Shown: positions 18,755-64,000 of the stretch, piece after piece
Layout: the number at the start of each line of letters is the position of its first letter
Numbering within the stretch: the stretch's first letter is position 1
DNA from: Liolophura sinensis
Taxonomy: Eukaryota; Mollusca; Polyplacophora; Chitonida; Chitonidae
Reading direction: 5' to 3'
DNA length: 64,000 nucleotides
Assembly: GCF_032854445.1 (NCBI RefSeq)
Contig: NC_088297.1
Location: 8,729,375-8,793,374, forward strand
Notes under the pieces: generated by a model
Databases searched by the model: none
What the model saw: only the letters and a program-made list of their open reading frames with translations
What the model was told of the DNA's origin: nothing
Program-made: the position numbers and the translations under genes

Positions 18755-19310
18755 TTAATTGTCTACTGGCCTACGTGTAGAATTCAGTCAGTGTGTTGGT
18801 TTTTACATGAAGTCTCCTCTTGTCTACTGGACTGCATGTAGAATTCAGTCAGTAAGTTGGTTTTTTGCAGAAAGTCTCCTCTTGTCTACTGGACTGCATG
18901 TAGAATTCAGTCAGTGTGTTGGTTTTTTGCAGGAAGTCTCCTCTTGTCTACTGGACTGCATGTAGAATTCAGTCAGTGTGTTGGTTTGTTGCAGGAAGTC
19001 TCCTCTTGTCTACTGGACTGCATGTAGAATTCAGTCAGTGTGTTGGTTTGTTGCAGAAAGTCTCCTCTTGTCTACAGGCCTACATGTAGAATTCAGTCAG
19101 TGTGTTGGTTTTTACATGAAGTTCTCTCTTACCCACTGGCCCCAATCTCAGCCAATGTACTGGTTTTTATATGAAGTCATCTCTTATCTACTGACCTTAA
19201 TCTCAGCCAATGTGCTGGTTTTTACATGAAGTCATCTCTTATCTACTGACCTTAATCTCAGCCCATGTGCTGGTTTTTACATGATGTCATGTCTTGTCTA
19301 CAGGACCTTA
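18755..19310. repeat. 62-bp minisatellite, about 9 copies
   Basis: Direct repeats with GTCTACTGGACTGCATGTAG, AATTCAGTCAGTGTGTTGG and TTTTTTGCAGGAAGTCTCCT. The five central copies are nearly identical and the right-hand copies are diverged (CCTTAATCTCAGCCAATGTG). Each central unit contains a pyrimidine-rich TTGGTTTTTTGCAG that resembles a 3' splice site on the plus strand, although no plus-strand gene is seen here. Confidence 0.9.
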
Positions 19311-21380
19311 ATCTCAATTTATACGCAGGAACTGACAGGCTACAGAGAATATTTTATCCCACGCCATTTTTACAAAAGTAGTAATAATAAATCATAAAAG
19401 TAATAACACAACAACAACATGAAAAATACGTTTGCAACCACTTTATTGAAGACTTTCAATAAATACTTTTGACGACATAATAATACGAGGACTGTTTAGG
19501 CTTTGGCTCTCATTTTATAAGGTACACCAAATTTACCTCATTACAACACTGACATCTTATGCAATACTGAATGGAGTTGTTAAGTTCCTAAGAACCCATT
19601 TAATGGAAATTCTCCTGCCCTCATGTGCGGTAAAGCAAATATTAAGTAAAAAAAAAAACATTCTTGTGGTAAGAAAGTGAGGTGATCATTTGTAAGAAAA
19701 CCTCCCTTTGAAACAACACTCTCATTTTGAGTTCAACATATAAGAAAAATACAATATGTATATTACCACTGCCCAAAAACAATAAATTAATTAAAACAAC
19801 AACAACAACAACAAAGAACAAAAAGAAAACAAATACACACCTCACCCAGATTTTCACAAGCAGTCTTTTTATTTGAACAAGCAATGTAAATGTGTGCACC
19901 ATTCTGGTATAATACTTAGATGTCTTTACTTTTTGTACTCACAACTTCATTGACATAGCACTAAATAAATACACGTATATAACAATATATATATTTATAT
20001 ATATATATATATATATATATAACTCTTTTTAAATGACTTTCAATATAAATTTGAACCATAAATTCATAAAACAAACTTTAACTCATGCTAGTCTAACTGT
20101 TAACAATTTGCGTTGAAAATGACTGAAAATACTTAACAAAATGTAATAACAATTATAAAACATGTAATAATAATAATAATAATAATAATATACGTGCAAT
20201 TTGTGATAATTTACATGACAAATAAAGCCTTTGGAAAACAGAAAAAGTGACAGCGGCCTACATATGTATGTGTGCTGTTCTGTACACTCCATAAAAATAG
20301 ATACTATGACCGCCTTATAGCATTCAATACATGTATGTAAATAATTTATTCAATAAAACAGCACTAAAGGCATGCTCGTAACAAAATTAGTCATTATTCT
20401 TGGTATAAAAAAATGGCACGTTAGAAGTAAAACAAAACCTGAAAACGTCCATAAAAATGTGTTCATTGCCAGGGGTACGTAACTGGCAATGAAGTATATA
20501 GAATATTTTTAATACATTAGTGTAGAGTTTAAGTGTGTGGGAAAATCTGAAAAGCAAAAAGGTACAGAAACAAAAGGCCTCAGCTTTCCATTTCATAATT
20601 CGCTCAACCTGCCTTAACTTTTTTCCCTTTCGTTCACATTTCTTGGAAGTCCTAGTTCACAGAATTTACATCTTTAGGTGACCTACCTAGCTTCAGTTTC
20701 ACATGCTTAGCCCTTTCACTGTTTTAGCAAAATAAATGTATCTGACAAGATGTAAAATAGGTTTCACTTACACTGTATAAAATGTCAAATTTGAAAAAAA
20801 AGTAAATAAAATAGAAATGTGTAAATTTAAAAAAAAATAAAGACAAAAAACGGCAAGTGAGCATTGAAATTTAAGCTTTTTTTCCTCCTGAATTCTAAAA
20901 TACAAATCTGATATTAATGTGGTTATCTGAGTGTAACAAAATTCTACATGATTTATCATAGAATGTTTGGCTGATTGCTCATTAAAATGTCTTCTGCATT
21001 AACCAAAAACCTTAATGCTAACTTAATGGTGATTTAAGCACTACACCTGTATCATACTTATCATTTAATATCATATATTAAAAACTGAACAGACACATTT
21101 TCTTCATCTGATTACTGTTTCATGCTGCACTCAACAATTGACCTATGTACAGTATGAAGTGACTCACATTTTGCTGTGTTATACTGTGCATGAACATGTA
21201 TATGTAGACTAAAGACATCTTGTTCAACATTTTAATTTTGAACTACAAAAATATTTTATCCAAACTAAAGAAAAGAAAAAAAAAAACTATGACTCGTGTG
21301 TAACAAAATTATACGGCTAAGTGAATGAGTCTGGGCTGTCACATGGTGGATCATCTTCATAGCTTGCTATCTTGGCCTTA
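19311..21380. other. AT-rich stretch, possible CREBL2 3' UTR
   Basis: Very AT-rich, with a (TA)n tract at 19987-20021 and an imperfect (TAA)n at 20167-20190. No exon-like segments. It may be part of a long 3' UTR of the minus-strand CREBL2 gene, given the poly(A) signal candidate near 19445, but this cannot be shown from sequence. Confidence 0.35.
19443..19448 (-). terminator. Candidate poly(A) signal, minus
   Basis: AATAAA on the minus strand (TTCAATAAAGTGGTTGC), followed about 40 bases on by a GT-rich TTGTTGTTGTGTTATT that could act as the downstream element. Using it would give CREBL2 a 3' UTR of about 3.5 kb. Signals also occur nearer, so the assignment is weak. Confidence 0.3.
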
Positions 21381-21552
21381 TATTTATTTATTTACTTATT
21401 TATTTGATTGGTGTTTTACACCGTACTCGGGAGTATTTCACGTATACAACGGCCGCCAACCTTACAGTGGGAGGAAACTGGGCAGAGCCCAGGGGATACC
21501 CACTACCATCCGCAAGTTGCTAGCAGGCCTTCCCATGCAAGGCCAAGTTTGT
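21381..21552 (-). mobile_element. SINE copy, 5'-truncated, minus
   Basis: TATTTATTTATTTACTTATT tail complement, TTGATTGGTGTTTTACACCG, the ACAGTGGGAGGAAACTGGGC block and CTACCATCCGCAAGTTGCTA, ending near CTTCCCATGCAAGGCC. The head is missing. Confidence 0.88.
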
Positions 21553-21771
21553 ATTTACACACATACAGGTATAGCATGCAGTGTATATACATGTATAAGG
21601 TTATGGCACATATGCTGGATGTAACTTAATATATCAGAAGAATGGCAAATCTAATTCAAGTTAATGTTTAAAATAGAAAAATAAATAAATAATGTACCAA
21701 GTCCTTCTTTGATTTGTAATATTAAAGACTGGGGAAAAATATCTTATTTCTTCTGTAGAGAAAACCTATGC

Positions 21772-22993: not shown

Positions 22994-23956
22994 TCACGAC
23001 AATTCTTGTGTAGACAAGAGTATTTCCTGTATATCCTCCGGACAAGGCGCATTTGTTACGATCTGATTGGTGGGTTGGTCGTGTACGGCACTGGGATACC
23101 ATGATGACGTAGTTTTGAAATGGTTCAAGAGTTTGGCGTCATGCTGGGCATCCCCGGTCACCTGTCCCACAGCCGATACGTTCAGCTCATACAAAAACGG
23201 TTGTGGCGACGACGTGGAGACTGACGGTGTAGCATAAAATATGCTATCGGTGCCGCACAACATCGGTGCAGACGCAGGAGTGGCGTCCAGAAACACTGGT
23301 TGTCCTCCAGAGTTTCCGGAAACAATTTGGCTGACAGATGCCTCGGAGTTGATGGCATCCTGAAAGGCTGGATCAACATCCATACTAACATTTCTGTTGT
23401 AGGATGATGAACTGCTTGTTGTGTGGTTGCCATCTGGGGGCAAATGACGGAATACGGAAGGGGGAGACATCTGAACAGCAACATTCGGAGAAGCGATGGC
23501 TCCAAATTCGTATGGAGCACCAACCGCCATATCAAAACTGTTTCCAGTATCACTCACAGAGATGGAAGTTCCGCGAATATCATCCAAAATGTTCAAAAAA
23601 CTTGTCGTCCTTGGATCCTCCTGGGTGGGTGTAATTGGGGAACAACTTGAACTCTGCAATGACTCACTGGAAGACGATGAAGGGGACATTTCTTTGAGGT
23701 CATCAGTATGTGACGACCGGCCATCGCTTCCAACAGGTGAACTTTTTGAGGTTTCTCCGAATTGCTGGCTTGTCCCCGGCTTTCCGAGGACATCCATTAG
23801 GATATCATACGGAGTTTCTTCGCTGTCGCTTTCAGCTTTCACGACAGGCTTTTGAGATTTTCTTTTTTGGTTTGCAGGTGTGGCAGATGAAGCCAAGAGA
23901 CTTTCAATTCCTTCAGGGATGTGACCATTGTCAATAGCCTCACACACTTCTCTGAA
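22994..23956 (-). CDS. CREBL2: CREBL2 coding exon 3 (zipper end and long C-terminal extension)
   Basis: 320 codons plus TGA after the acceptor CTGTGTTACAG|TTCAGAG. The first ~22 residues complete the zipper and family tail. The remainder is Ser/Thr/Pro/Asn-rich with an SPSSSSSESL run and ends in PCPEDIQEILLSTQELS, a short acidic amphipathic C-terminus. Antisense frames of 60-120 codons across it are shadows. Confidence 0.92.
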   Translation of the reverse strand, partial: FREVCEAIDNGHIPEGIESLLASSATPANQKRKSQKPVVKAESDSEETPYDILMDVLGKPGTSQQFGETSKSSPVGSDGRSSHTDDLKEMSPSSSSSESLQSSSCSPITPTQEDPRTTSFLNILDDIRGTSISVSDTGNSFDMAVGAPYEFGAIASPNVAVQMSPPSVFRHLPPDGNHTTSSSSSYNRNVSMDVDPAFQDAINSEASVSQIVSGNSGGQPVFLDATPASAPMLCGTDSIFYATPSVSTSSPQPFLYELNVSAVGQVTGDAQHDAKLLNHFKTTSSWYPSAVHDQPTNQIVTNAPCPEDIQEILLSTQELS

Positions 23957-26900
23957 CTGTAACACAGGATATTCGAGATGAAAAACAAAACATCATACAC
24001 ATGCTCACATGCTCCCAGGTTATGGCATGCATTACTCTGGACTCAGGGGCATGATGATGGAACACAAGGATAAAGTGCTCTTGAAACAAGGAACAAAATG
24101 TTATTCTTCAAAATTTCACACTATTACATGTAGCATTGGAAGGGGGTATATATTGAAACCATTTATGCATTTTTTTTCCCTTTCTGTGTTGTTTTATTTT
24201 AATTTGATCTTAGGGTGTACAGATAATATATGGTGACGTCAATACCAAATATGTGTAATGTATCAACTTTAGCATGTATTGACTAGAAGTTTTAGTACAG
24301 GTACACTCTTATATTATTCAGTTAGCATTTTTGACCCAATAAAATATATAAGATTCAACAGAGGTCAAAGTGGAAAAGTACTCTGAGGTCAACCATGAGT
24401 AAGGAACGTCCGGTTGAGCTGGATGTTTCTGTGGCTAACAATAATATGCACTGTGTCAAGAAATTTTTTCTGCTTTTTAACTTCATTTTTTTTTTTTCGA
24501 CATGTTGATAAAATCTTGCTTCTTTGAAATCTTTGCTCTGTTATCCATAATGTTATGAAATGAACACATGCAGGCTTATCTTTTGTTCAGTGAACTTCAA
24601 TTCTTTTTCAGCAACAGGTCCTTTCTCACTTTTAAGGTGAAATCCAGACACAATCCTTGAGCATCCAAAATCTTTCTGGCCATATCATCCTCATCACTGA
24701 ATCAAACAGTCACAAAGCTGTTCTGTGAAAATATTTACTATTTTTCCTACCTGCATCCCTTGTGATGCAAGCTAACAAGTAAACTCACAGGGGACATGCA
24801 TATGGTTTGATAACGATGTAAGAACCTTCATCGGAACGTCACCAACACAAAAAATCCAGGAGTTGTTATCCATAAGTAATGCTTCTGCCATTCAATATGC
24901 ATGTTATTTTGCTACATCACCAAGGCTCTCGATCTCTGATCTTTGAAGAGTGCAAATATAACACATCTTTGTAACTTTCAGCCTGCATTCGAAATATATC
25001 TTGGTCACCTGTGACAGTCTTCCTTCATGTAACATGACTTGTAACATCTTGCACATCTCAAACCTCTCGCAGCTTTCACGAAAACAACTGAACTGTGGCA
25101 ACTGCTTAGACAGGAGTTTGGCTGGAGTTCTTTGTAATACTACTCGCAATGATATCTCTGGTAATTTCTCATGACGTCAGTCACTGCACATTTGAATGAC
25201 CTGTTATAATTTCACTTTGACTATCACACAGTATCACAAACTGAAACTACAACTGTACAGCACTGCAATACAACTGTACAACGCCAATAATACGTGTGAC
25301 TTCCAGGCGCTTGGAGACAACCTCTGACACTCAGATATACATGTACGCTTGGGCACTGTTGTGTCGCCACCTTTGCAAGAAACATTACAACAGACACTTC
25401 AACCAGGGCTCCACCTCCAAGACTTGAAATACAAACATTGTTGATTTCTGTCACGTAAAGTGAAGATTTGCGTCTTCCAGTTTAATACACGTATTTTCCA
25501 GCCTTGTAATCCACATCACATGAAATTCACGTCTGATCTTACAGAGCACATAACTTGGGCCTCATACATCTCCATTTCGATGAAGTACAGTACATATGAC
25601 TTATTGCCCATTAGCAAACTCAGAAATTCCAACATCACCATAAACCCCGAAATCTGTAACCAGAACCAGCAAGCTTTGACCAAGTCTAGTTCACATTTAG
25701 AACACACACTGAGCAAAGTCTGGTACACATGCAAACCTTGGCTGTATCCATCTCCTCCAAAATTCGTTCTCCTCTTTGCCTCTCACCACATAACCAGCTT
25801 CAGATCCATGAAGCTCCAGAATGAAATCCTCGAATTCTCTTCTTCCAAGGTTCATCGTGATTCCTCGCTTTCCTTTCTTATTTTATCTCTTTCATTTTAT
25901 CTTCGTTTGCTTGCACTTCTTATCCTGCTTTTTTTTTTTTTTTTTCCTTTGGCTTCTTGGCTTTTTTCTCCTTTCTTTTGTTCATTTTTTTTTCTTCCTT
26001 TTTATTTTATTTTTTTTTTTTTCTTCTGCTGTCTTTTCTTGTTCCTCACAATAACATAGCATAAAATCCATATTTTATTTTTCAAGGGCAGAGTACCTGC
26101 TGTGATATACAGAGTGACGGCAACAAAATCTTCAGTATCATAATACAAAACATTCATGCTGACTTTAATGCAACTATGAACAGGCTGTGAAAACTGAAAA
26201 ATGGCTTTTGAAGAATTTCTATACGGCAGATAATTCGTTAGATTTGCTGGAAATCTTTTCTATTTCTAAATACTTATTTACTTTAATCCTCCCATGAAAG
26301 GAAAAGCTAAATACAAGTACGTTGTCCTAAGACGGTATTGTGTTCTTCCATGTTGAGACAACAACAGAAAATCCCCCACCCTTCCCACGGTCTTTTTCTT
26401 TACCATTTTCATGAAAAAGTCACTCAAATAAATTTATTATAAATACGGTCAGTCTGTAGACACCATGACATGACAGAAATCAAAAACACACAGGTAAATC
26501 ATACTGTATAAATTACTTATTTCTCACTTCGTCCCTAAATACAGTTTTTCTTTTTACGCAATCAGAAAAGGCACAAGTTTCATATTCACACCTGTTCTTC
26601 AAGGATTTCCTAACTCAACTTTAGATTCTTTGCCCAGATTGGTTTAGCTACCATACATGTGAAGAACTTCTACAAAATCCTTCAGAAAAGTCTAAGATAA
26701 GGGGAGATAACTCTAAAAGGCGTTTGCAGTCCCACTTTTTGAAGGACATCCCTGTATATCCATACCTATTGCTGGTATGTGAATGATACTACTTAACACT
26801 GCATCATAATACATACTTAGCTAAGGAGCTGGTTCTGAATTAATTTTTTCAAGTTGTGAAGTAGGGCAAATGATGATCCCTATGGGTACACATATAAGTG

Positions 26901-29289
26901 ATCAAGAATAGTGAGGAAATGAATGGAACATCAGACTGAAATGATCTAGAAGGCTAGTTTGTACCTGCATATATACCTGACACAAGAAGACCTACACATA
27001 CCGTAATTTCATAATTATCAAGACGCCAAGCCAAAACTTATATGAAAGTATTCTTCTGACTTTCTTTTCTTTTTTCTTTTTTTTTTGGTGTACTATCAAT
27101 AAGAGATGACTTCATCAGCACAATGTATGACTTCATTTCAAAATGCTTACCAAGCTAAAATGCCTGTAGAGCTTCTTAACCACTGATATGTTGTTTACAA
27201 TGTAATATCATATCTACTTAACCACTGATATGTTGTGTACAGTGTCATATCACATCTTCTTAACCACTGATATGTTGTGTACAATGTCATATCACATCTT
27301 CTTAACCACTGATATGTTGTGTACAATGTAATATTACACGCCTGCTAAAGTTGTTCCTTCATTCCAGGAAACATTTGTGTTACATGAATGTATGTGAATG
27401 TCATTGGAAACAAACTTTATGCATGGACAGCAGAAGTGTTTGTGCCCTCAGGGTATCGGTAACATTACTTTCTAAAACGCGGCCTTATAAAACGCGGCGT
27501 AGGTATTGAATGTGATTCAAAACCCACGCAATTTAAAAAAAAAAAAAAACATCTGGAAAAAATTGTGGTGTTTGTTTTGTTGGAATTTCCATGTTCACTT
27601 TATTTCTACCACACATTTAAGTGTCTGTATTTAATGTGCATAAATGGTATCAAAACTCTTCAAAACACGGTTAAATAATAGGAGTTAAAATAATAAAAAC
27701 ATATACTCACTTGCTCCAGCTCTGATCGCAGTGCATACACTGCCTTTTCTCGGCTGTTCACTAACTCCTCAAGATACTGGTATCGGAGCTTTTTCCGCGC
27801 CCGACATTCTCTTGCACTTTGACGACTCCTTTCTAACTTTACTTTCACATCTACCTTAGACGGTCTTCTGCCACGCTTCCCCACTCTCTTTGTTGAGGTC
27901 TCATTTGTTGATTTCTGTTAAATTGATAGAAGACAAACATTATAACACCTAGGTGTTACACGTATCAAGCTCAATAAACTTAACACACACATATATAGAT
28001 CAGGACAGCAGCCTTATGATTATACAGTTTTGACATATGCACAGGGCCAGGCACCAGTGAGTCAGACGGTGAGAGAGCCAGGTATCAGTCAGTCAGACAG
28101 TGAGAGAGTCAGGCAACAGTGAGTCAGGCAGTGAGAGAGCCAGGCAACAGTGAGTCAGACAGTGAGAGAGTCAGGCATCGGTGAGTCAGACAGTGAGAGA
28201 GTCAGGCATTGGTGAGTCAGACAGAGAGAGAGTCAGGCATTGGTGAGTCAGACAGTGAGAGAGTCAGGCATCGGTAAGATGTTCATTTATCGACAGACCT
28301 TACTGATATTTTATCATATGCTGAAATCTGCTGCAATTTCAAATAGTTCGGTTTCGTACAACAATTATTATGTCATTTCGCATGTTGTATGAGGCCTGAC
28401 ATTTCGTTCTCAATTCTGTTCTTTCACATTTATGCAAATTAATCTACAGATTTTATACCTCTCACTGGTCAGGCTGTCCTCATGAAATCGCCATAATGAA
28501 CAGAACTGACACTAAATCACAAAAACACTGACTAGGGAATACAGCACTACTATCAGTACCATCCACAAAAATACAATGTAAGCCTACATAGGTACTGACT
28601 ATACCATAAAAAATACAATGTAGGCCTACATAGGTGCTGACTACACCACAAAAAATACAATGTAGGCCTACATAGGTGCTGACTATACCACAAAAAAATA
28701 CAATGTAGGCTTACATAGGCACTGACTATACCCCAAAAAATACAATGAAGGCTTATAGGCACTGACTATACCACAAAAGATACAATAAGGAACTGAATAT
28801 CTATGGTTAGTAACATTGTTTAATCGTATTCATAGGCTTCTTAGACTGTATTTGTTTACATTACGAAACAGTAGAACTAACAGCTGAATGATAACAATGA
28901 ACGTGACTGACTGACTGACATTTCGAGGTAAACACAGACTGTGGAATCGTCGTTCTCGGATTGAAATTTGAGAACAACGATTCCACAATCTCAACAAATA
29001 GAAATTTATTTCTAAATTCTATTTTTAGTTATTCATCAAAACTTTCTACAAGCCCGCTGACAGACAGCTAGGACGATTGAGGTAAAACATTGCAAAACCA
29101 ATATGTCTAAGCGACATCGTTGTTTTGATTACAGATTACAACAACAACCTGTACGCTACAGTCACACAGACTCGCAAACAAAGCCCGAAACGATCGTTTT
29201 AACGCTCTTACCTTGGACATTTTGTCGCTCAGCGTTCCAACCTTCTCCACTAGTCCAGCCTGTGAAATTTTTGCAGACGATTCTGTCAT
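22994..29289 (-). CDS. CREBL2: CREBL2-like bZIP transcription factor (3 exons, complete)
   Basis: Joining 29212-29289, 27711-27914 and 22994-23956 gives 414 codons plus stop; both junctions are phase 0 with GT/AG ends. Residues 38-115 match vertebrate CREBL2: a basic patch (GKRGRRPSK), then the basic region SRQSARECRARKKLR (56-70) with the Ser-for-Asn change typical of CREBL2. A zipper on heptad positions L74, R81, L88, F95 and I102 follows, then the family tail IPEGIESLL (107-115). CREBL2 proteins are nuclear bZIP factors that partner other bZIPs; the fly counterpart, REPTOR-BP, works with REPTOR downstream of TORC1. The oddity is length: vertebrate CREBL2 is about 120 residues, whereas here about 300 further residues follow, including an acidic DSEETPYDILMDVL segment and a Ser/Thr-rich, probably disordered stretch that could act in transactivation. 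Identity of the bZIP core is secure; the role of the extension is unknown. Confidence 0.93.
23957..27710 (-). other. CREBL2 intron 2
   Basis: 3.75 kb. Contains a T-rich pyrimidine tract on the plus strand at about 25855-26045, which produces a spurious 199-codon open frame, and a 42-bp array at 27177-27344. No nested gene was recognised. Confidence 0.8.
27177..27344. repeat. 42-bp tandem repeat, 4 copies
   Basis: Four units beginning TAACCACTGATATGTTGTGT and ending ATATCACATCTTCT, in CREBL2 intron 2. Confidence 0.85.
27711..27914 (-). CDS. CREBL2: CREBL2 coding exon 2 (basic region and zipper start)
   Basis: 68 codons between the acceptor TCAATTTAACAG|AAATC and the donor GAGCAA|GTGAGTA. It encodes almost the whole DNA-binding region and the first half of the zipper. 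This is the best conserved exon of the locus. Confidence 0.95.
28049..28275 (-). repeat. 31-bp array, core of inverted element (left copy)
   Basis: About seven units containing GAGAGAGTCAGGCATCGGTG and AGTCAGACAGT. Its reverse complement forms the array at 31345-31690, and the unique arm beside it (28290-28383) also matches 31222-31340 in reverse. The two are therefore copies of one element in opposite orientation. Confidence 0.8.
28290..28383 (-). repeat. Unique arm of inverted element, left copy
   Basis: Contains CTTACTGATATTTTATCATA, TGCTGAAATCTGCTG, CAGTTCGGTTTCRT-like sequence and ATTATTATGTCATTTCGCA. Each block has a reverse-complement match in 31222-31340. Confidence 0.8.
28563..28795. 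repeat. 42-44-bp tandem repeat, about 6 copies
   Basis: Units read AATACAATGTAGGCCTACAT then AGGTGCTGACTATACCACAA, with A-run length variation. Lies in CREBL2 intron 1 and creates short fortuitous open frames on the minus strand. Confidence 0.88.
28940..28987. other. Short hairpin in CREBL2 intron 1
   Basis: An 18-base arm (TGTGGAATCGTCGTTCTC) and its reverse complement with one mismatch, separated by 12 bases. The stem is too short for a typical animal pre-miRNA; more likely a miniature inverted repeat. Confidence 0.55.
29212..29289 (-). CDS. CREBL2: CREBL2 coding exon 1
   Basis: 26 codons from the first in-frame ATG to a consensus donor (TCCAAG|GTAAGAG). It encodes a Ser/Lys-containing leader without a known domain. 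The frame stays open a little further upstream but without another ATG. Confidence 0.85.
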
Positions 29290-31221: not shown

Positions 31222-31690
31222 AAATAGTGCGAAATTACATAATAATGGTTTTATGAAACCGAACTGTTTGAAATGTGTAATTACAGCAGATTTCAGCATA
31301 TGACAAAATATCAGTAAGGCCTATTGATACATGAATATCTTACTGATACCTGACTAACTGACTCACTGGTGCCTGATTCTCTGACTGTCTGACTCACTGG
31401 TCCCTGGTTATCTAACTGTCTGACTCACTTGTGCCTGATTATCTGACTGTGTGACTCACTGGCCCCTGGTTGTCTAACTGTCTGACTCACCGGTGCCTGA
31501 TTATCTGACTGTCTGACTTTCTGACTCACTGGTGCCTGATTATCTGACTCTCTGACTCACTGGTGGTTGATTATCTGACTGTCGAAATCACTGGTGTCTA
31601 ACACTTACTGAGTGACTCACAGGTGCCTGACTCTCGTGACTGTCTGACCCTGTGTTGTCTGACTGGTGTCTGATCATTTGATTATCTGAC
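31222..31690 (+). repeat. Inverted element, right copy (unique arm plus tandem core)
   Basis: 31222-31340 is the reverse complement of 28290-28383. 31345-31690 is an array of CTGACTCACTGGTGCCTGAT and TATCTGACTGT units, the reverse complement of 28049-28275 with more divergence. Together they form a 3-kb inverted pair around CREBL2 exon 1. Elements with a tandem-repeat core beside a unique arm resemble the Helitron-related non-autonomous elements of bivalves, but no terminal hairpin was identified. Confidence 0.7.
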
Positions 31691-43162: not shown

Positions 43163-46100
43163 AGGGCTGGATTACACGACACAATAGGAAGTGGTACAAG
43201 TGCGGAGTTACACGACGCAATAGAAAGTGGTGGAAGTTCGTAATTACACGACACAATAGGAAGTTAGTTAGCGCGCTAGCGCAGCGTAATGAACCAGGAG
43301 TCTCTCATCAATGGGGTCGCTGTGAGTTCAAGTCCAGCTCATGCTGGCTTCCTCTCCGGCCGTATATGGGAATGTCTGTCAGCAGCCTGCGGATGGTTGT
43401 GGGTTTCCAGCGGGCTCTGCCCGGTTTTCTCCCATCATAATGCTGGCCGCCGTCGTATAAGTGAAATATTCTTGAGTACGGCGTAAAACACCAATCCATT
43501 AAAAAAAACAATAGGAAGTGGTACAAGTATGGAGTTACATGACACAATAGGAAGTGGTACAAGTACGGAGTTACAGGACACAATAAGCGCAGCTTCGACA
43601 TAGACACTGTGTCATCACTTTTCTGGCCTACATCGCCTTTGGGTAATGATGTGTTTACTTACCTTGCACGCTTGTGTACGTCTATTGTATATTTGTGTAT
43701 GTATACCTTCTCTAAACAACAACGTTTAAGTTCAAAGTTCGTAACATCGAAATAACGCAGTGGTAATGATATATAAATGTAAATGTGATATAGTGATGTT
43801 TACGATGTGAAGTAGTTTGCACTGATGAGGCCTGTACTGAGAGCTTTACACACGTAAGATGCATGACTCATGTCTGCAGGCGAAGACCGCTATATAACGG
43901 GCCTAATTGACGTGGCAGAAACGTTGACGTGCTCCAAGCCGAGTTTAATAGTTCATCCTTATTAACGAAAATGCATAGGTCTCCGTGCGTCACATATCAA
44001 CACCTTTCCTTACATCTGCACTTTGCACCACGGCAACAATTACACCGGCTCTGTCTCACGTATTATGGTATACCATGAGCAGTGAAGTGTGCAATAGTCA
44101 GTCCTAACAATGTGTGTATATTATTCACTTTTTTTGCGAATGCCTTGGGAAAGGACGAATTTTATCTAAATTGTTTAAGCATAATTCGTCAAATACAGAT
44201 ATTGTTATTATTAATGATTTTAATATTCTGAAGTATTATAAAACAGCCTGGGCCTAAGATATATCGAACTGATCGACACTGGATTTGATCCAACTGATCG
44301 ACCTCTTAAGAAAATGGGTTTGAGTGAGTAAAGGCAAATTCGATTCGCCTTCTCTTTGCGACGCCAGTCAGTCACATTTCCATGCCTTCGTTCAACGCCA
44401 GACTGAAGCAATCGTGCGTGCGCGTTAAGTACAAACATTTGAACAAATATTTAGTTATATGTAAAAAAAATCTACTCGTTAGAAATAAAATGCATCAAAA
44501 ATCTCAAAGAGCTGCTTCAATCTGCACACAAGCAAAAGACTGGAAACTAATGTCTAGAGTGCCGGTGTGTTTTCTCTAGCAATCATCCAGAAATCACCCG
44601 CTCCAGACACATCTTCCTGTTTGGATTTTGCTGCACACAAAAACTGGGAATTAAGGATGGCTGGGTGCACGAAAGTAGAGCTTTTAAAGTCGGTTAGAAA
44701 CATACTGATACAGAATCCAGACACACAAAAATTTAGCTCAAACGCCCACTTGTGTCAAGTAAACTGTCGAGGTGAACGAGGGGAACGCAGTGAAAGCCAT
44801 CAGAGCGAGAAGAAAGCATATCATAAGCAACCGGGTAGATTGAATGATACAAGTGAAGGAATGAAGCTTTATTCTCAGGTTCGGTTTTCTCTAAATCTTT
44901 GGCGCTCCCCTTCACAACAGTTCTAGATTTTTCCTCATGTCACGGAATGTAAATTTGCCTCGTGCTGAACATATTGTCACTTTGAGTACATCAATTCCAA
45001 CGATTACAAGATTTGAGTACCGATTCCACCCATTGGCTTAGATCATTCCTTGGGTATTTCCAACTCTATTGAAAACAGTTGACTTATTTCTTACATTGTA
45101 TACTTTCTTAGTTTCTTAGTCGGTGATTTGTGTTAAACTTCGTTTTGAGAATTGCCCTTGCAATTATTGACCCAGAACCTCCTTTTTGGTTAATGCACAG
45201 ATTCTAAAATACACAACAAGAGCGAAGAAACTTAAAAACAGGTCCATGCTTCGTTTTGTGTTTCGACTCATACCCAGCAAATACTGTATATCGAAGTACT
45301 TTCGTCCTGATCCAAAGCAACAAGTAATAACATCGCGATTTGTAAGCAACTAAATGCGAACAAATGGGACTTCCACAAACGGAAGTTATGTGGAATGGTT
45401 AGTGGCAATTTATCAGTGAGTGCGATCTGGTCGATACAAATATGAGGCTTTGAAGCTAAACATTTTCGTTGAAGCTGAAATCCTTGTGTAGCCCACCACA
45501 CAGGACGATTAGTTACACCTGAGTAACATTACATACAGTACTAATATGTGCCCGATCAGGTGGTCTAAAGCTGGATTAACTTGTATTCAGTAGAGGTGCA
45601 TTTAACATTGGCCAGGTGAATAAACAGTAATTTGTTTGGAAATAAAATTAAATGCTATTGAGATATGGACGGATGTAGTGTTTGAATATGACGGGTAATC
45701 AGACAGGACCATCACATACTCTGCAGAAAATAAGCATATTATAAGATTTTATATGATAAAAGATATAGAAAAAAAACATTTCTCATTAACTTCTCTGTGA
45801 AATAGGCCTGGTCCTGTTTTATCCCTCCTGCAAATTGTTACGCTGGATACAGAAAATAAATCTCCAGTTTTGAGCGTTAGCATCCTTATAAAGATTGGGT
45901 GCCAAGGCGTCGATATATGGGTACCTCCTAACACTGCTTAACCGCAGAGGCATATATGCGAATAGAGGGTCTTTGGGACGCTTGCACTGAAGGGGAGTGG
46001 GTCATATGAATGATAATGACCTGATTTCGTGATACGACTATGGTAAATCCATTTGGTATATGATAAGCACTTTGCACTGAGTGCACTGTATGTACACAGA

Positions 46101-58609: not shown

Positions 58610-58775
58610 TTAAAGCTCGTCATGTTTGAGGTTTTGTAACGGGTCATCGGCAGGTTTGATAAAGATGCCCTCTGCGGTCTGCCAGTAGTTGAGATCACTG
58701 GGATGGGGATAGCCGCTAATCTCATACTGACCATGGATCGGGCGGCCGTACGAGTCCCCGCTCACGTGCAGGTAG
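58610..58775 (-). CDS. SDF2L1: SDF2-like terminal exon
   Basis: Acceptor GACTTTATATTTCAG|CTACCTGC; one base completes a His codon, then 54 codons and TAA. Encodes the end of the last MIR repeat and the HDEL signal. Confidence 0.93.
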
Positions 58776-61700
58776 CTGAAATATAAAGTCGATAATAAAG
58801 GTGAGAATTATTTACTGTGTTGGTTGTTAACCAAGTACATGTATACAGAGTTATGCCAATTGCCTTGTTCATGAATTTATGCAATGCTCAAGAAAGTTTT
58901 ATTCGTGAGAATTTTTTTTTTTTTTGGATTTTTTCTTTTGGTCAGGTGAGATTGATGATTAGGTCAAATTTATGTTGTTTTAGTCAGGTCAGACTTATGG
59001 TCTTTAGCCATGTCAGATTTAGTCAGGTCAGATTTATGGTTTTCAGGTTAGATCATATTTACATATATGGTGTTTGGGTCAGGTCAGATTTATGTTTTTT
59101 TAGTCATGTCAGATCAGATTTATATTTTTTTTAGTCAGGTTAGATTTATGGTTTTTCAGGTTAGGTCATAATTACACATATGGTTTTTGGGTCAGGTCAG
59201 ACTTATGTTTTTTAGTCATGTCAGATCAGGACTTATGGTTTTTTGGTCAGGTCAGGTAAGATTTTATGATAAGGTCCGATTTATGGGTTTTGGGTTAGAT
59301 CACATTGACATGTATGGGTTTTTGGTAAGGCATATGGGCCAGGTCAGATTCATGATTTTATTTGAAGTAATTGAAGTAATTCTCAATACATATATGAAGA
59401 AAGAACATTTAACAAACCGAGACACTGATGTAACTTTGAAACTTCAAATGGTAATCTTGCCCATTTTAATTTTTAACATTATGCTTGTTTGTGACTGGTT
59501 CATCAACCTTATACATTGCCTGTGGGGGACAGTTTTTATGAAGTCTGATACCTGTAGACTAAATGTAACAAAAATCCTATTCAAGTCACACCAATAATCA
59601 GAGGTAAGGTGTGATGTTTGATATACCGCCTGTTCAAAGGGACATAACTCTCGCCTATGCGGTCAAAGAAAGAGGTGATAAGACAGAAACAGTCATTTGT
59701 GCATATTTTGCATTGACTGTGTAGGATTGTGTAGAATTATGTAATTGGCTTTGGTAGAGCTGTTTTTTAGAGAATTAGGTCAGAACAAATAGAATAACAG
59801 AACAACTACGGTATTTCATCTAAAGTTTAGTATGTAAAAATGAACATCAGAAGAACATAAAGGCCTTAAAATAAAACTTTTGATTTATTTATTTAGTTGA
59901 TTGGTATTTTTACGCAGTACTCAAGCATATATTTCACTTATGTCGGCGGCCAGCATTATGGTGGGTGGAAATTGGGCAGAGCCTGGGAGAAACCCACGAC
60001 CATCCACAGGTTGCTGGAAGACCTTCCTACGTACCAAAAGTGTACAGAGGGAGAGGAAGCCAGCACGAGCTGGACTTGAACTCACAGCGACCCGCGTTGG
60101 TGAGAGAAAAATTAATCAGAAAAATGTGTCGCATCAAAAATGCTTAAGTTCAGGTGAAATACAGTGAATGTATTTATGGCACCAAAACTGTCCCTTGATC
60201 CTCAGCAATGAGCATGCCCTGTACAGTATTCAGCAGGGAGAGGCTTCTCTACAGGCAAGCCAGTAGTGAGACATCTGTCCCCAGACCCTCAGCGACTAAC
60301 ATGCCCTGTACAGTATACAGCAGGGAGAGGCTTCTCTACAGGCAAGCCAGTAGTGAGACATCTGTCTCCAGACACTCAGCGACTAACATGCCCTGTACAG
60401 TATACAGCAGGGAGAGGCTTCTCTACAGGCAAGCCAGTGGTGAGACATCTGTCCCCAGACCCTCAGCAACTAACATGCCCTGTACAGTATACAGCAGGGA
60501 GAGCTTCTCTACAGGCAAGCCAGTGGTGAGACATCAGTACCCAGACCCTCAGCAACTAACATGCCCTATACAGTATACAGCAGGGAGAGGCTTCTCTACA
60601 GGCAAGCCAGTAGTGAGACATCTGTCTCCAGACCCTCAGCGACTAACATGCCCTGTACAGTATACAGCAGGGAGAGGCTTCTCTACATGCAAGCCAGTAG
60701 TAAACATCTGTCCCCAGACCCTCAGCAACTAACATGCCCTGTACAGTATACAGCAGGGAGAGGCTTCTCTACAGGCAAGCCAGTAGTGAGACATCTGTCC
60801 CCAGACCCTCAGCAACTAACATGCCCTGTACAGTATACAGCAGGGAGAGGCTTCTCTACATGCAAGCCAGTAGTGAGACATCTGTCCCCAGACCCTCAGC
60901 AACTAACATGCCCTGTACAGTATACAGCAGGGAGGCTTCTTTACATGCAAGCCAGTAGTGAGACATCTGTCCCCAGACCCTCAGCAACTAACATGCCCTG
61001 TATAGTATACAGCAGGGAGAGGCTTCTCTACATGTAAGCCAGTAGTGAGACATCTGTCCCCAGACCCTCAGCAACTAACATGCCCTGTACAGTATACAGC
61101 AGGGAGAGGCTTCTCTACATGCAAGCCAGCAGTGAGACATCTGTCCCCAGACCCTCAGCAACTAACATGCCCTGTACAGTATACAGCATGGAGAGGCTTC
61201 TCTACATGTAAGCCAGTAGTGAGACATCTGTCCTCAGACCCTCAGCAACTAACATGCCCTGTATAGTATACAGCAGGGAGAGGCTTCTCTACAGGCAAGC
61301 CAGTAGTGAGACATCTGTCCTCAGACCCTCAGCGACTAACATGCCCTGTACAGTATACAGCAGAAAGAGCTTCTCTACATGTAAGCCAGTAGTGAGACAT
61401 CTGTCCTCAGACCCTCAGCGACTAACATGCCCTGTACAGTATACAGCAGGGAGAGGCTTCTCTACAGGCAAGCCAGTAGTGAGACATCTGTCTCCAGACC
61501 CTCAGCGACTAACATGCCCTGTACAGTATACAGCAGGGAGAGGCTTCTCTACAGGCAAGCCAGTAGTGAGACATCTGTCCCCAGACCCTCAGCAACTAAC
61601 ATGCCCTGTACAGTAAACAGCAGGGAGAGGCTTCTCTACAGGCATGCCAGTAGTGAGACATCTGTCCCTAAGACCCTCAGCAACTACCATGCACTGTACA

Positions 61701-62720
61701 GTATACAGCAGGGAGAGGCTTCTCTACAGGCAAGCCAGTAGTGAGTCACCAGCATGCCAGTGGTGCATTTATAGAGCACCTGTTGTATTCCTCTATTCAC
61801 AACCTGGTTTGTATGTACCAGTTCTTCAAGTCATCATGTCCAAAGGCCACAGCAATGGACCTCATGGAATTTGAATGACATTTCTGTTGGTGCTCATAAC
61901 TTTTATTTGATTTACTTGATTGGTGTTTTATGCCGTACTCAAGAACATTTCACTTATACAACGGCGGCCAGTATTCCATTGGGAGGAAACTTGACATAGC
62001 CCAGGGAAAACCCACGTACATCTGCAGGTTGCTGGCAGACCTTCCCATGTACGGCCTGAGAGGAAGCCAGCATGAGCTGGACTTGAACTCTCAGCGACTG
62101 CATCATTAAGAGGCTCTGGGGTCATAACAGCTCATAACTTTTACAACTGTCCAGCCAGATTCAGAAAATAAGCTAAGGCAACACCAATTTTATTTTGTGT
62201 TTTATGGGCAAGCTGAAGCTTAAAAAAAAACCCAAAATGAAATAAAAATAAAATCGCAAATGCACTTAATTTTGCCCAATCCTAATGTTTTTTTTATGAT
62301 TTTCCTTTTTTTCAAAGCTTTTGATGTTTTTATCAGGAACAATTGCTGGTATACAGCCCACATGTTACACAAAGCAGATGATATTTTTTTAATTTTCATA
62401 CTCTCATCCACCATTGAAAAAAGCCTCAATATAAAGTGGCACTATATGTATTTAATTTCCTTGGTCGATGTTTTACCAATATTCTTTACCCATGAATATT
62501 TCACCAATACAATGGTGGCCAGCATTTATAGTGAGTGAAAACCTCCCCCACGACCATTCGCAGGTTGCTGCCAGACCTTCACATGTAAGGCCATAACAAT
62601 ACAAACATGACAAAGACAACAAAAGAATGAATACTCACTGCTCAGTGACAACATTCTTCAGTCTAAATTTTTGTTCCCTTGACCAGAGTTTCCCGCTGCA
62701 CACCACTACCCAGTTATCAC
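58610..62720 (-). CDS. SDF2L1: SDF2/SDF2L1-like ER protein with HDEL tail (3' part of gene)
   Basis: Two exons (62639-62720 and 58610-58775) join in phase 2 to encode the last ~81 residues: GDNWVVVCSGKLWSREQKF, then the YLHVSG segment, Y-G-R-P-I-H-G-Q-Y-E and EGIFIKP, ending KHDEL. This matches the third MIR repeat and C-terminus of SDF2 and SDF2L1 (human SDF2L1 has LWTVRCSG, FLSVTGEQYGSPIRGQHEV, EGIFIKP and HDEL). The family consists of soluble ER-lumen proteins that bind the Hsp40 co-chaperone ERdj3 (DNAJB11) and assist BiP-dependent folding; SDF2L1 is induced by the unfolded protein response. The HDEL end is an ER-retrieval signal. The signal peptide and first MIR repeats lie beyond the right edge. 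Which paralogue it is cannot be settled from the C-terminus. The intron upstream of 62720 is a 31-bp satellite derived from this gene. Confidence 0.9.
58930..59350. repeat. Irregular GGTCAGGTCAGATTTATGG repeats
   Basis: Units of about 25-45 bp built from GGTCAGGTCAGATTTATG and TTTTTTAGTCATGTCAGATC with variable spacers. About 12 copies, degenerate. A plus open frame of 105-136 codons across it is not a gene. Confidence 0.8.
59880..60108 (-). mobile_element. SINE copy, head-truncated, minus
   Basis: Tail complement TTGATTTATTTATTTAG, CAGTACTCAAGCATATATTT, GCGGCCAGCATTATGGTGGG, CACGACCATCCACAGGTTGC, CCAGCACGAGCTGGACTTGA and ACCCGCGTTGGTGAGAG. Ends before the tRNA-like head. Confidence 0.9.
60206..61745. 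repeat. 87-bp satellite array, about 18 copies
   Basis: Unit CCCTGTACAGTATACAGCAG, GGAGAGGCTTCTCTACAGGC, AAGCCAGTAGTGAGACATCT, GTCCCCAGACCCTCAGCAAC, TAACATG. The dominant period is 87 bp; a few copies lose 1-3 bases. Since 87 is a multiple of three, plus-strand frames stay open for up to 174 codons, but they run antisense to the SDF2-like intron, have no domain and are broken by indels. Confidence 0.96.
61906..62128 (-). mobile_element. SINE copy, head-truncated, minus
   Basis: TTGATTTACTTGATTGGTGT, TATGCCGTACTCAAGAACAT, CAACGGCGGCCAGTATTCCA, CATCTGCAGGTTGCTGGCAG, AGCCAGCATGAGCTGGACTT and AGAGGCTCTGGGGTCATAA. The tRNA-like head is absent. Confidence 0.9.
62458..62596 (-). mobile_element. SINE 3' half, diverged, minus
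   Basis: TTCCTTGGTCGATGTTTTAC, CATGAATATTTCACCAATAC, AATGGTGGCCAGCATTTATA and CACGACCATTCGCAGGTTGC, ending near CACATGTAAGGCC. Lies only about 43 bp from the SDF2-like exon. Confidence 0.8.
62639..62720 (-). CDS. SDF2L1: SDF2-like penultimate exon
   Basis: 82 bases: acceptor TTTCTTTTATCCAG|GTGATAACTGG (phase 1 entry, completing a Gly codon), donor ACTGAGCA|GTGAGTATTC (phase 2). Encodes DNWVVVCSGKLWSREQKF then RLKNVVTE, the start of the last MIR repeat. Its first 17 bases and the 14 intron bases before them are the unit of the adjacent 31-bp satellite. Confidence 0.92.
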
Positions 62721-64000
62721 CTGGATAAAAGAAACTCTAAACAGTTATCACCTGGATAAAAGAAACTCTAAACAGTTATCACCTGGATAAAAGAAACACT
62801 ACCCAGTTATCACCTGGATAAAAGAAACTCTAAACAGTTATCATCTGGATAAAAGAAACACTACCCAGTTATCACCTGGATAAAAGAAACTCTAAACAGT
62901 TATCACCTGGATAAAAGAAACACTACCCAGTTATCACCTGGATAAAAGAAACACTACCCAGTTATCACCTGGATAAAAGAAACACTAAACAGTTATCACC
63001 TGGATAAAAGAAACTCTAAACAGTTATCACCTGGATAAAAGAAACACTAAACAGTCATCACCTGGATAAAAGAAACACTACCCAGTCATCACCTGGATAA
63101 AAGAAACACTACCCAGTTATCACCTGGATAAAAGAAACTCTACCCAGTTATCACCTGGATAAAAGAAACTCTACCCAGTTATCATCTGGATAAAAGAAAC
63201 TCTACCCAGTTATCATCTGGATAAAACAAACTCTAAACAGTTATCACCTGGATAAAAGAAACACTACCCAGTTATCACCTGGATAAAAGAAACTCTAAAC
63301 AGTTATCACCTGGATAAAAGAAACACTACCCAGTTATCACCTGGATAAAAGAAACACTACCCAGTTATCACCTGGATAAAAGAAACACTAAACAGTTATC
63401 ACCTGGATAAAAGAAACACTACCCAGTTATCACCTGGATAAAAGAAACTCTAAACAGTTATCACCTGGATAAAAGAAACTCTAAACAGTTATCATCTGGA
63501 TAAAAGAAACACTACCCAGTTATCATCTGGATAAAAGAAACTCTAAACAGTTATCACCTGGATAAAAGAAACTCTAAACAGTTATCACCTGGATAAAAGA
63601 AACTCTAAACAGTTATCACCTGGATAAAAGAAACTCTAAACAGTTATCACCTGGATAAAAGAAACACTACCCAGTTATCACCTGGATAAAAGAAACTCTA
63701 AACAGTTATCACCTGGATAAAAGAAACACTACCCAGTTATCACCTGGATAAAAGAAACACTACCCAGTTATCACCTGGATAAAAGAAACACTAAACAGTT
63801 ATCACCTGGATAAAAGAAACTCTAAACAGTTATCACCTGGATAAAAGAAACACTACCCAGTTATCATCTGGATAAAAGAAACTCTAAACAGTTATCACCT
63901 GGATAAAAGAAACTCTAAACAGTTATCACCTGGATAAAAGAAACTCTAAACAGTTATCACCTGGATAAAAGAAACTCTAAACAGTTATCACCTGGATAAA
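62706..64000 (-). repeat. 31-bp satellite of duplicated 3' splice sites, about 42 copies, runs off window
   Basis: An exact 31-bp period from 62711 to the window end. On the coding (minus) strand the exon-like unit is TTTCTTTTATCCAG followed by GTGATAACTGGGTAGTG: 14 bases of intron 3' end plus the first 17 bases of the SDF2-like exon. Variants alternate GGGTAGTG with TTTAGAG, and rarely GTGATAA becomes ATGATAA. The CCAG|G acceptor core is kept in essentially every copy. The copy next to the exon merges with it. The array is therefore the intron/exon boundary itself, amplified into the intron. Confidence 0.95.

Follow-up and report, generated by a model that had tools for sequence, protein, structure and literature searches.

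How can a gene make its protein when the 3′ splice site of one of its exons has been copied, in tandem, dozens of times into the intron upstream of it? We examined this question at an SDF2-like gene of the chiton Liolophura sinensis, in a window of 64,000 nt (G000:C3:8729375-8793374, scaffold C3 of a 609-Mb assembly with 632 contigs). The assembly was published as L. japonica (PMC11068029) and later corrected to L. sinensis (PMC12441733); its data are PacBio HiFi at 14x, from one individual (PMC11068029). The explanation that best accounts for the locus as a whole, to which we give a probability of about two in three, is that of a tolerated minisatellite, seeded by a duplication of the 3′ splice site, in which the right acceptor is picked by its position, that is, by proximity across the exon.

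A 31-bp minisatellite made of a 3′ splice site

Tandem Repeats Finder reported a 31-bp array at window positions 62711-64000 (41.6 copies, 93% matches, 0% indels), and cutting the array by hand gave 41 full units with all 40 intervals exactly 31 nt long, plus a unit truncated by the window edge but with its AG, which brings the acceptor AGs in the window to 42. This is the number of copies given in the preliminary description, which had also stated that the array continues beyond the window; followed to its end on the genome (Table 1), however, the array contains 95 units in the assembly, again with intervals of 31 nt throughout (94 of 94). Hence, the array is real and about twice as long as earlier noted.

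Each unit consists of 14 nt of intron end (TTTCTTTTATCCAG) followed by the first 17 nt of coding exon 5, the penultimate one, and so the duplicated segment crosses the intron-exon boundary, as had been described. The feature does not start at 62706, where it had been placed, since the exon-derived 17 nt run from 62720 to 62704 within an exon of 82 nt (62720-62639). From its beginning inside exon 5, the array extends 2,928 nt into the upstream intron and makes up 66% of the 4,455 nt of intron 4. It is flanked by the exon on one side and by unique intron sequence on the other, where the first unit abuts ...ATAAATGAATTTG/TTTCTTTTATCCAG (slashes mark boundaries); this unique sequence should be the old intron end. 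With 95 head-to-tail units of 31 bp and a mean pairwise identity of 94%, the array has the high identity and the unit length (about 10-100 bp) of a minisatellite, and its last unit carries the exon 5 acceptor that the NCBI protein implies.

The units fall into 14 types, of which the one at the exon junction occurs 27 times among the 95, and they vary mostly at the first base of the exon (G/A), by GG/TT, and by T/A close to the end of the unit. In the TTT-type units (57/95) the Trp codon TGG reads TGT, while it is intact at the exon itself. An AG is present at the acceptor position in 94 of the 95 units and a GT directly after this position in 79, the complete AG/GT being found in 78; in 16 units AT takes the place of GT, and TGATAAC is present in 92. 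In summary, the copies are spaced uniformly by 31 nt and are nearly equal in local sequence. No higher-order repeat structure was detected in three columns (0 of 15 lags with an absolute z above 2), and all four variant combinations are present at three column pairs of the 95-unit array, a pattern consistent with mixing by sub-unit exchange or with recurrent mutation. We also considered selection on the AG and rejected it: variable columns number 2 of 14 in the intron-derived part and 7 of 17 in the exon-derived part (Fisher p 0.13), and the comparison of non-singleton variants (0/14 and 5/17, p 0.048) was chosen post hoc and is too weak.

Table 1. Features of the SDF2-like locus, in window coordinates.
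Feature	Position	Strand	Basis
SDF2-like coding exon 5 (penultimate), 82 nt	62639..62720	-	sequence and NCBI protein P0003
AG of the last copy, acceptor implied by NCBI protein P0003	62721..62722	-	
5′ splice site of exon 5, GTGAGT; probably the partner selecting the last acceptor across the exon	62633..62638	-	sequence; role proposed
Last intron, 3,863 nt	58776..62638	-	
SDF2-like last coding exon, HDEL-stop at its end	58610..58775	-	
31-bp minisatellite	62704..64000 in the window, on to 65648 (C3:8795022)	-	Tandem Repeats Finder and hand cut
Candidate branch points for the last acceptor	A at 62745 (ATAAC, exon-derived), 62748 (GTGAT), 62757 (TTTAT)	-	simple motif only
Possible 8-bp RNA hairpin UUAUCCAG-GUGAUAA-CUGGGUAG around the last AG	62706..62728	-	prediction

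The gene is found once and its protein fits the last acceptor

A tblastn search with the NCBI L. sinensis SDF2-like protein P0003 recovered six collinear exon pieces on the minus strand, spanning window coordinates 70360 to 58613, and returned in addition one chance match (E 0.81). Exon 4 ends in GATGAGG/GTAAGT at C3:8796550, and exon 5 is entered in phase 1 (G/GT, Gly) and left at GAGCA/GTGAGT. The peptide of exons 5 and 6 matches 1t9f (E 1.5e-18), which we take to be C. elegans 1D10, and 3mal (E 2.9e-12), presumably the Arabidopsis SDF2-like protein, in both cases from query residue 1 (GD.W). Together with P0003, which reads ...GEGDEG/DNWVVVCSG... across the exon 4/5 junction, these matches bear out the assignment of the exon to an SDF2-like gene. 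P0003 is compatible with the last acceptor only: its record contains no extra residues at the junction, i.e. no insertion from upstream units, and its name has no isoform label. Although the SDF2 proteins among the matches carry PF02815, a Pfam search with the 82-aa tail gave no family. A search of the phage collection gave no match.

Since the genome of this chiton is reported to be partially duplicated (PMC12005716), we looked for a second copy of the gene; none was found in the genome at E<=0.001, where all six protein matches are exons of one gene. The last intron also harbours another minisatellite, unrelated to the first, with 18 copies of an 87-bp unit (window 60188-61745).

All other copies lead to a premature stop

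Exon 5 was entered at each of the 95 positions in turn and read in frame between exons 4 and 6. The last position gives the full protein to HDEL. In agreement with the earlier claim of a stop for every copy but the last, all 94 non-last positions lead to a premature stop, which precedes the last exon junction by 78-2,961 nt, the commonest truncated ends being GDEGDNCLEFLLSR-stop (31/94) and GDEGDNWVVFLLSR-stop (27/94). In the single unit whose AG is shifted by one base, reading from the shifted AG likewise ends in a stop. NMD acts on stops lying more than 50-55 nt upstream of the last exon junction, a distance exceeded at all 94 positions, as would be the case for a poison exon. Splicing to any non-last copy would thus produce a premature stop and would be expected to lead to clearance of the transcript by NMD.

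This raises the possibility, advanced in the preliminary description as a decoy or poison-exon dial, that a sizeable share of the transcripts is spliced to upstream copies and destroyed by NMD, which would tune SDF2-like output; copy number, splicing factors or ER stress would determine the share. The uniform stops, the near identity of local sequence across copies and the overall preference for upstream acceptors seen in the 3′ splice site data of PMC9225289 are in its favour; however, any stop-bearing duplication of an acceptor would look alike, the array bears no sign of being maintained for such a role, and control by ER stress would be pure conjecture. When the hypothetical truncated protein was used as a query, the seven proteins returned at E<=1e-60 were 216-232 residues long and none was truncated there, and the NCBI protein, as noted above, is unlabelled as to isoform. 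The protein records nevertheless leave room for unstable transcripts, as NMD targets are invisible in them. The sole product seen is the full-length protein fitting the last acceptor, and we regard this regulatory role, which is unproven, as unlikely.

A proposed choice of the last acceptor across the exon

Many copies are identical to the last one between -31 and +17, and local strength therefore cannot decide which acceptor is used. Under the preferred reading of a tolerated array, the correct acceptor would be recognised by its position and not by its own letters, which it shares with dozens of copies. As the introns flanking exon 5 are long (4,455 and 3,863 nt), the copy closest to the exon body and to the downstream donor would be favoured across the exon, a choice that is itself favoured since the existing protein fits the last copy. 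According to PMC9225289, the splice sites closest across the exon are favoured between long introns and those closest across the intron between short introns. For 3′ splice sites, the same paper reports an overall upstream preference that is significantly reduced by exon definition but not plainly reversed; its section on 3′ splice sites gives no figures for an outright downstream preference, and the experiment concerns 5′ splice sites (PMC9225289). An upstream preference that is reduced and not reversed is an argument against a choice across the exon, and 5′-to-3′ scanning at acceptors would, by analogy, pick the most upstream copy and not the last. Use of the last copy is suggested by the NCBI protein record, insofar as its model is well founded.

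A further point against the tolerated array comes from predicted RNA structure. The exon-type unit is predicted to fold into a hairpin of -8.9 kcal/mol (z -2.33, 5 of 200 shuffles as good; a lead only), three variant units are predicted to fold more weakly (-3.6, -1.9 and -2.2 kcal/mol), and both exact hairpin arms are found in 36 of the 95 units. The last copy is itself an exon-type unit, whose hairpin may bury its AG and thus make it weaker than many of the decoys. If the hairpin is real, the proper acceptor belongs to the more hidden class, which would speak against a choice based on strength and would make leakage to the open copies likelier. Folding of the array as a whole is not notable, neither as RNA (z -1.59, 5 of 100 shuffles as good) nor as DNA (z -0.79).

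The array also bears on the branch point. Since the nearest upstream non-repeat base is 2,928 nt away, the branch point used with the last acceptor most likely lies inside the repeats, judging from this geometry and from the usual distances of branch points. The candidates listed in Table 1 stand at -25, -28 and -37 from the last acceptor, all inside repeat units, and the exon-derived GATAAC is a plausible one. In a bolder reading, the satellite would have become a working part of splicing: with the native branch-site region displaced by about 2.9 kb, the acceptor would need a repeat-internal, plausibly exon-copied branch point, and the 95 near-identical AG(/GT) sites would form a self-correcting, length-tunable ratchet or a poison sink that sets the output of an ER chaperone and varies between individuals. 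We consider this combination rather improbable.

Its ratchet component can also be taken separately. As the AG/GT units are joined acceptor-donor sites, the intron or a mis-spliced product could be removed stepwise, and since all paths ending at the last AG give the same mRNA, errors would correct themselves. The direct juxtaposition of AG and GT in 78/95 units is in favour of such stepwise removal, as are two precedents: recursive sites are tandem acceptor-donor pairs (PMC8605326), and a new intron of potato drew its donor from exon sequence in the upstream copy (PMC4974935). Against stepwise removal stand the donors themselves. A donor has G at +5 and T at +6 in the consensus, both of which are missing from CAG/GTGATA, and the donor regenerated on exon 4 (AGG/GTGATA) is poorer still. 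Moreover, GT is not preserved, the 16 units with AT at that place being among the 95. Hence, we find it very doubtful that the array acts in this way.

Origin of the array

The exon-derived half of the unit encodes (G)DNWVV, which is conserved in mollusc SDF2. Among nine proteins compared, GDEGDNWV is common to P0003, Haliotis, Mizuhopecten, Gigantopelta, Lottia and Patella, with slight departures in Octopus (GDAGDDWT) and in P0007 and P0013 (GDEGDHWV). Because this half codes for a conserved segment, the exon is, on sequence grounds, the source of the repeat unit, as originally suggested. An unlinked satellite with the same unit had been named as the observation that would point to capture of the exon boundary instead; a genome search with 301 bases of the array gave at least 14 matches, all inside the array, and no unlinked copy. 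That a pre-existing satellite invaded the exon boundary, or that the copy number is an assembly artefact, is the most improbable account of all, for although the array is very regular and the assembly represents one purged haplotype at 14x HiFi, the exon half is conserved coding sequence, the genome DNA search found no other locus, the mean HiFi read (8,769,373,110 bases / 1,050,568 reads = 8.35 kb) is long enough to span the 2.9-kb array, and the 14 unit types are intermingled along the array, in which no repeat period was detected. The RNA and the DNA were taken from different individuals, according to the genome paper (PMC11068029), and the copy number may therefore differ between them.

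We propose that the array started as a small 31-bp tandem duplication that spanned the exon 5 acceptor, and that slippage and/or unequal exchange then expanded it to 95 copies, in a genome that appears to be rich in such arrays. In a background sample of 20 stretches of 10 kb (200 kb), all from scaffold C3, we found 56 arrays with periods of 10-120, which cover 8.7% of the bases; 13 of these have at least 10 copies and four at least 20. In the window, minisatellites account for 12.4%. Minisatellites are thus a common feature of this scaffold. That one has landed on a splice site is therefore unsurprising; the unusual aspect is that the array is tolerated there, probably without being selected for. 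Acceptor-like units are not enriched among arrays with a period of 14-120 and at least four copies in the 20 stretches and the window: under a strict filter, and with the SDF2-like array included, they occur in 2 of 44 arrays, compared to 2.74 expected from shuffled units.

Other repeats were noted in the window. The unit of a 62-bp array with 5.7 copies (18759-19113) contains GGTTTTTTGCAG and is acceptor-like by eye, although it fails the strict filter. Two 31-bp arrays (28048-28272 and 31343-31648), 3 kb apart, have units that by eye resemble the reverse complements of one another and lie near a bZIP gene on the minus strand (22997-29289). Three pieces of this gene match the NCBI protein P0001 (414 aa), and its exon at 22997-23992 is 98% identical to Liolophura sinensis LOC135463708; we take the gene to be CREBL2-like, the C-terminus of P0001 being presumably longer than that of CREBL2. 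Open reading frames at 61900-62130, 59884-60144, 43311-43658 and 21325-21621 have translations that are similar by eye, the first three with ELDLNSQR, and are probably one dispersed SINE-like repeat.

Comparison with known systems

The locus amounts to a natural competition experiment, in which dozens of acceptors with the same local sequence differ mainly in position, within a gene that is found once in the genome and is still required to make its protein. The usage of each copy would gauge the weight of exon definition, intron distance, scanning and first-AG choice, a question of acceptor choice that is usually approached with two-site minigenes. Judging from the array, a splice acceptor may be swamped by its own copies with no evident loss of the gene; the array also offers a place to weigh the cost of excess splice sites against population copy number.

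The earlier statement that no satellite built this way has been described was too strong. A search of the open-licence literature, in which absence is a weak indication, found no acceptor-side satellite among papers judged by titles and the beginnings of abstracts; repeats of splice sites are, however, not wholly new, being preceded by a donor repeat in human F7 and by a two-copy acceptor duplication in potato. The F7 array has about five repeats and is thus far smaller than that of the chiton. According to PMC6627357, which cites Borensztajn 2006, intron 7 of F7 contains a variable number of 37-bp repeats; the authentic 5′ splice site belongs to the first of them, and splicing normally uses this most upstream, exon-nearest site alone. 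As in the chiton, a tandem repeat, variable in F7, carries the gene's own splice site in highly homologous copies, of which F7 normally uses one (PMC6627357). The two differ in that F7 concerns the donor side and the chiton the acceptor side, and in that the site in use lies in the first repeat in F7 and, according to the protein record, in the last in the chiton. With respect to the choice across the exon, F7 would seem to cut both ways: the exon-nearest copy is used there, yet the review explains this by oriented scanning (PMC6627357).

Ratchet points, as described in PMC8605326, likewise have an acceptor followed directly by a donor GT, but they are conserved, mostly lie inside long introns and have functional donors. 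In the chiton, by contrast, AG/GT marks a true start of an exon, the donor appears weak and GT is absent from 16/95 copies.

A parallel in structure is the potato RdRp gene, where an intron was gained by tandem duplication of a segment spanning the 3′ splice site (PMC4974935); the segment, now in two copies, crosses the intron end and the exon start and carries the putative branch site, the pyrimidine tract and the AG. In potato there are two copies and in the chiton a satellite; furthermore, the potato duplication yielded a new intron and an inserted exonic stretch, supported by 106 RNA-seq reads (PMC4974935), whereas the chiton protein has no insertion. In the chiton array, the F7 donor repeat has a counterpart on the acceptor side, and the two-copy duplication of the potato RdRp gene an extension to many copies.
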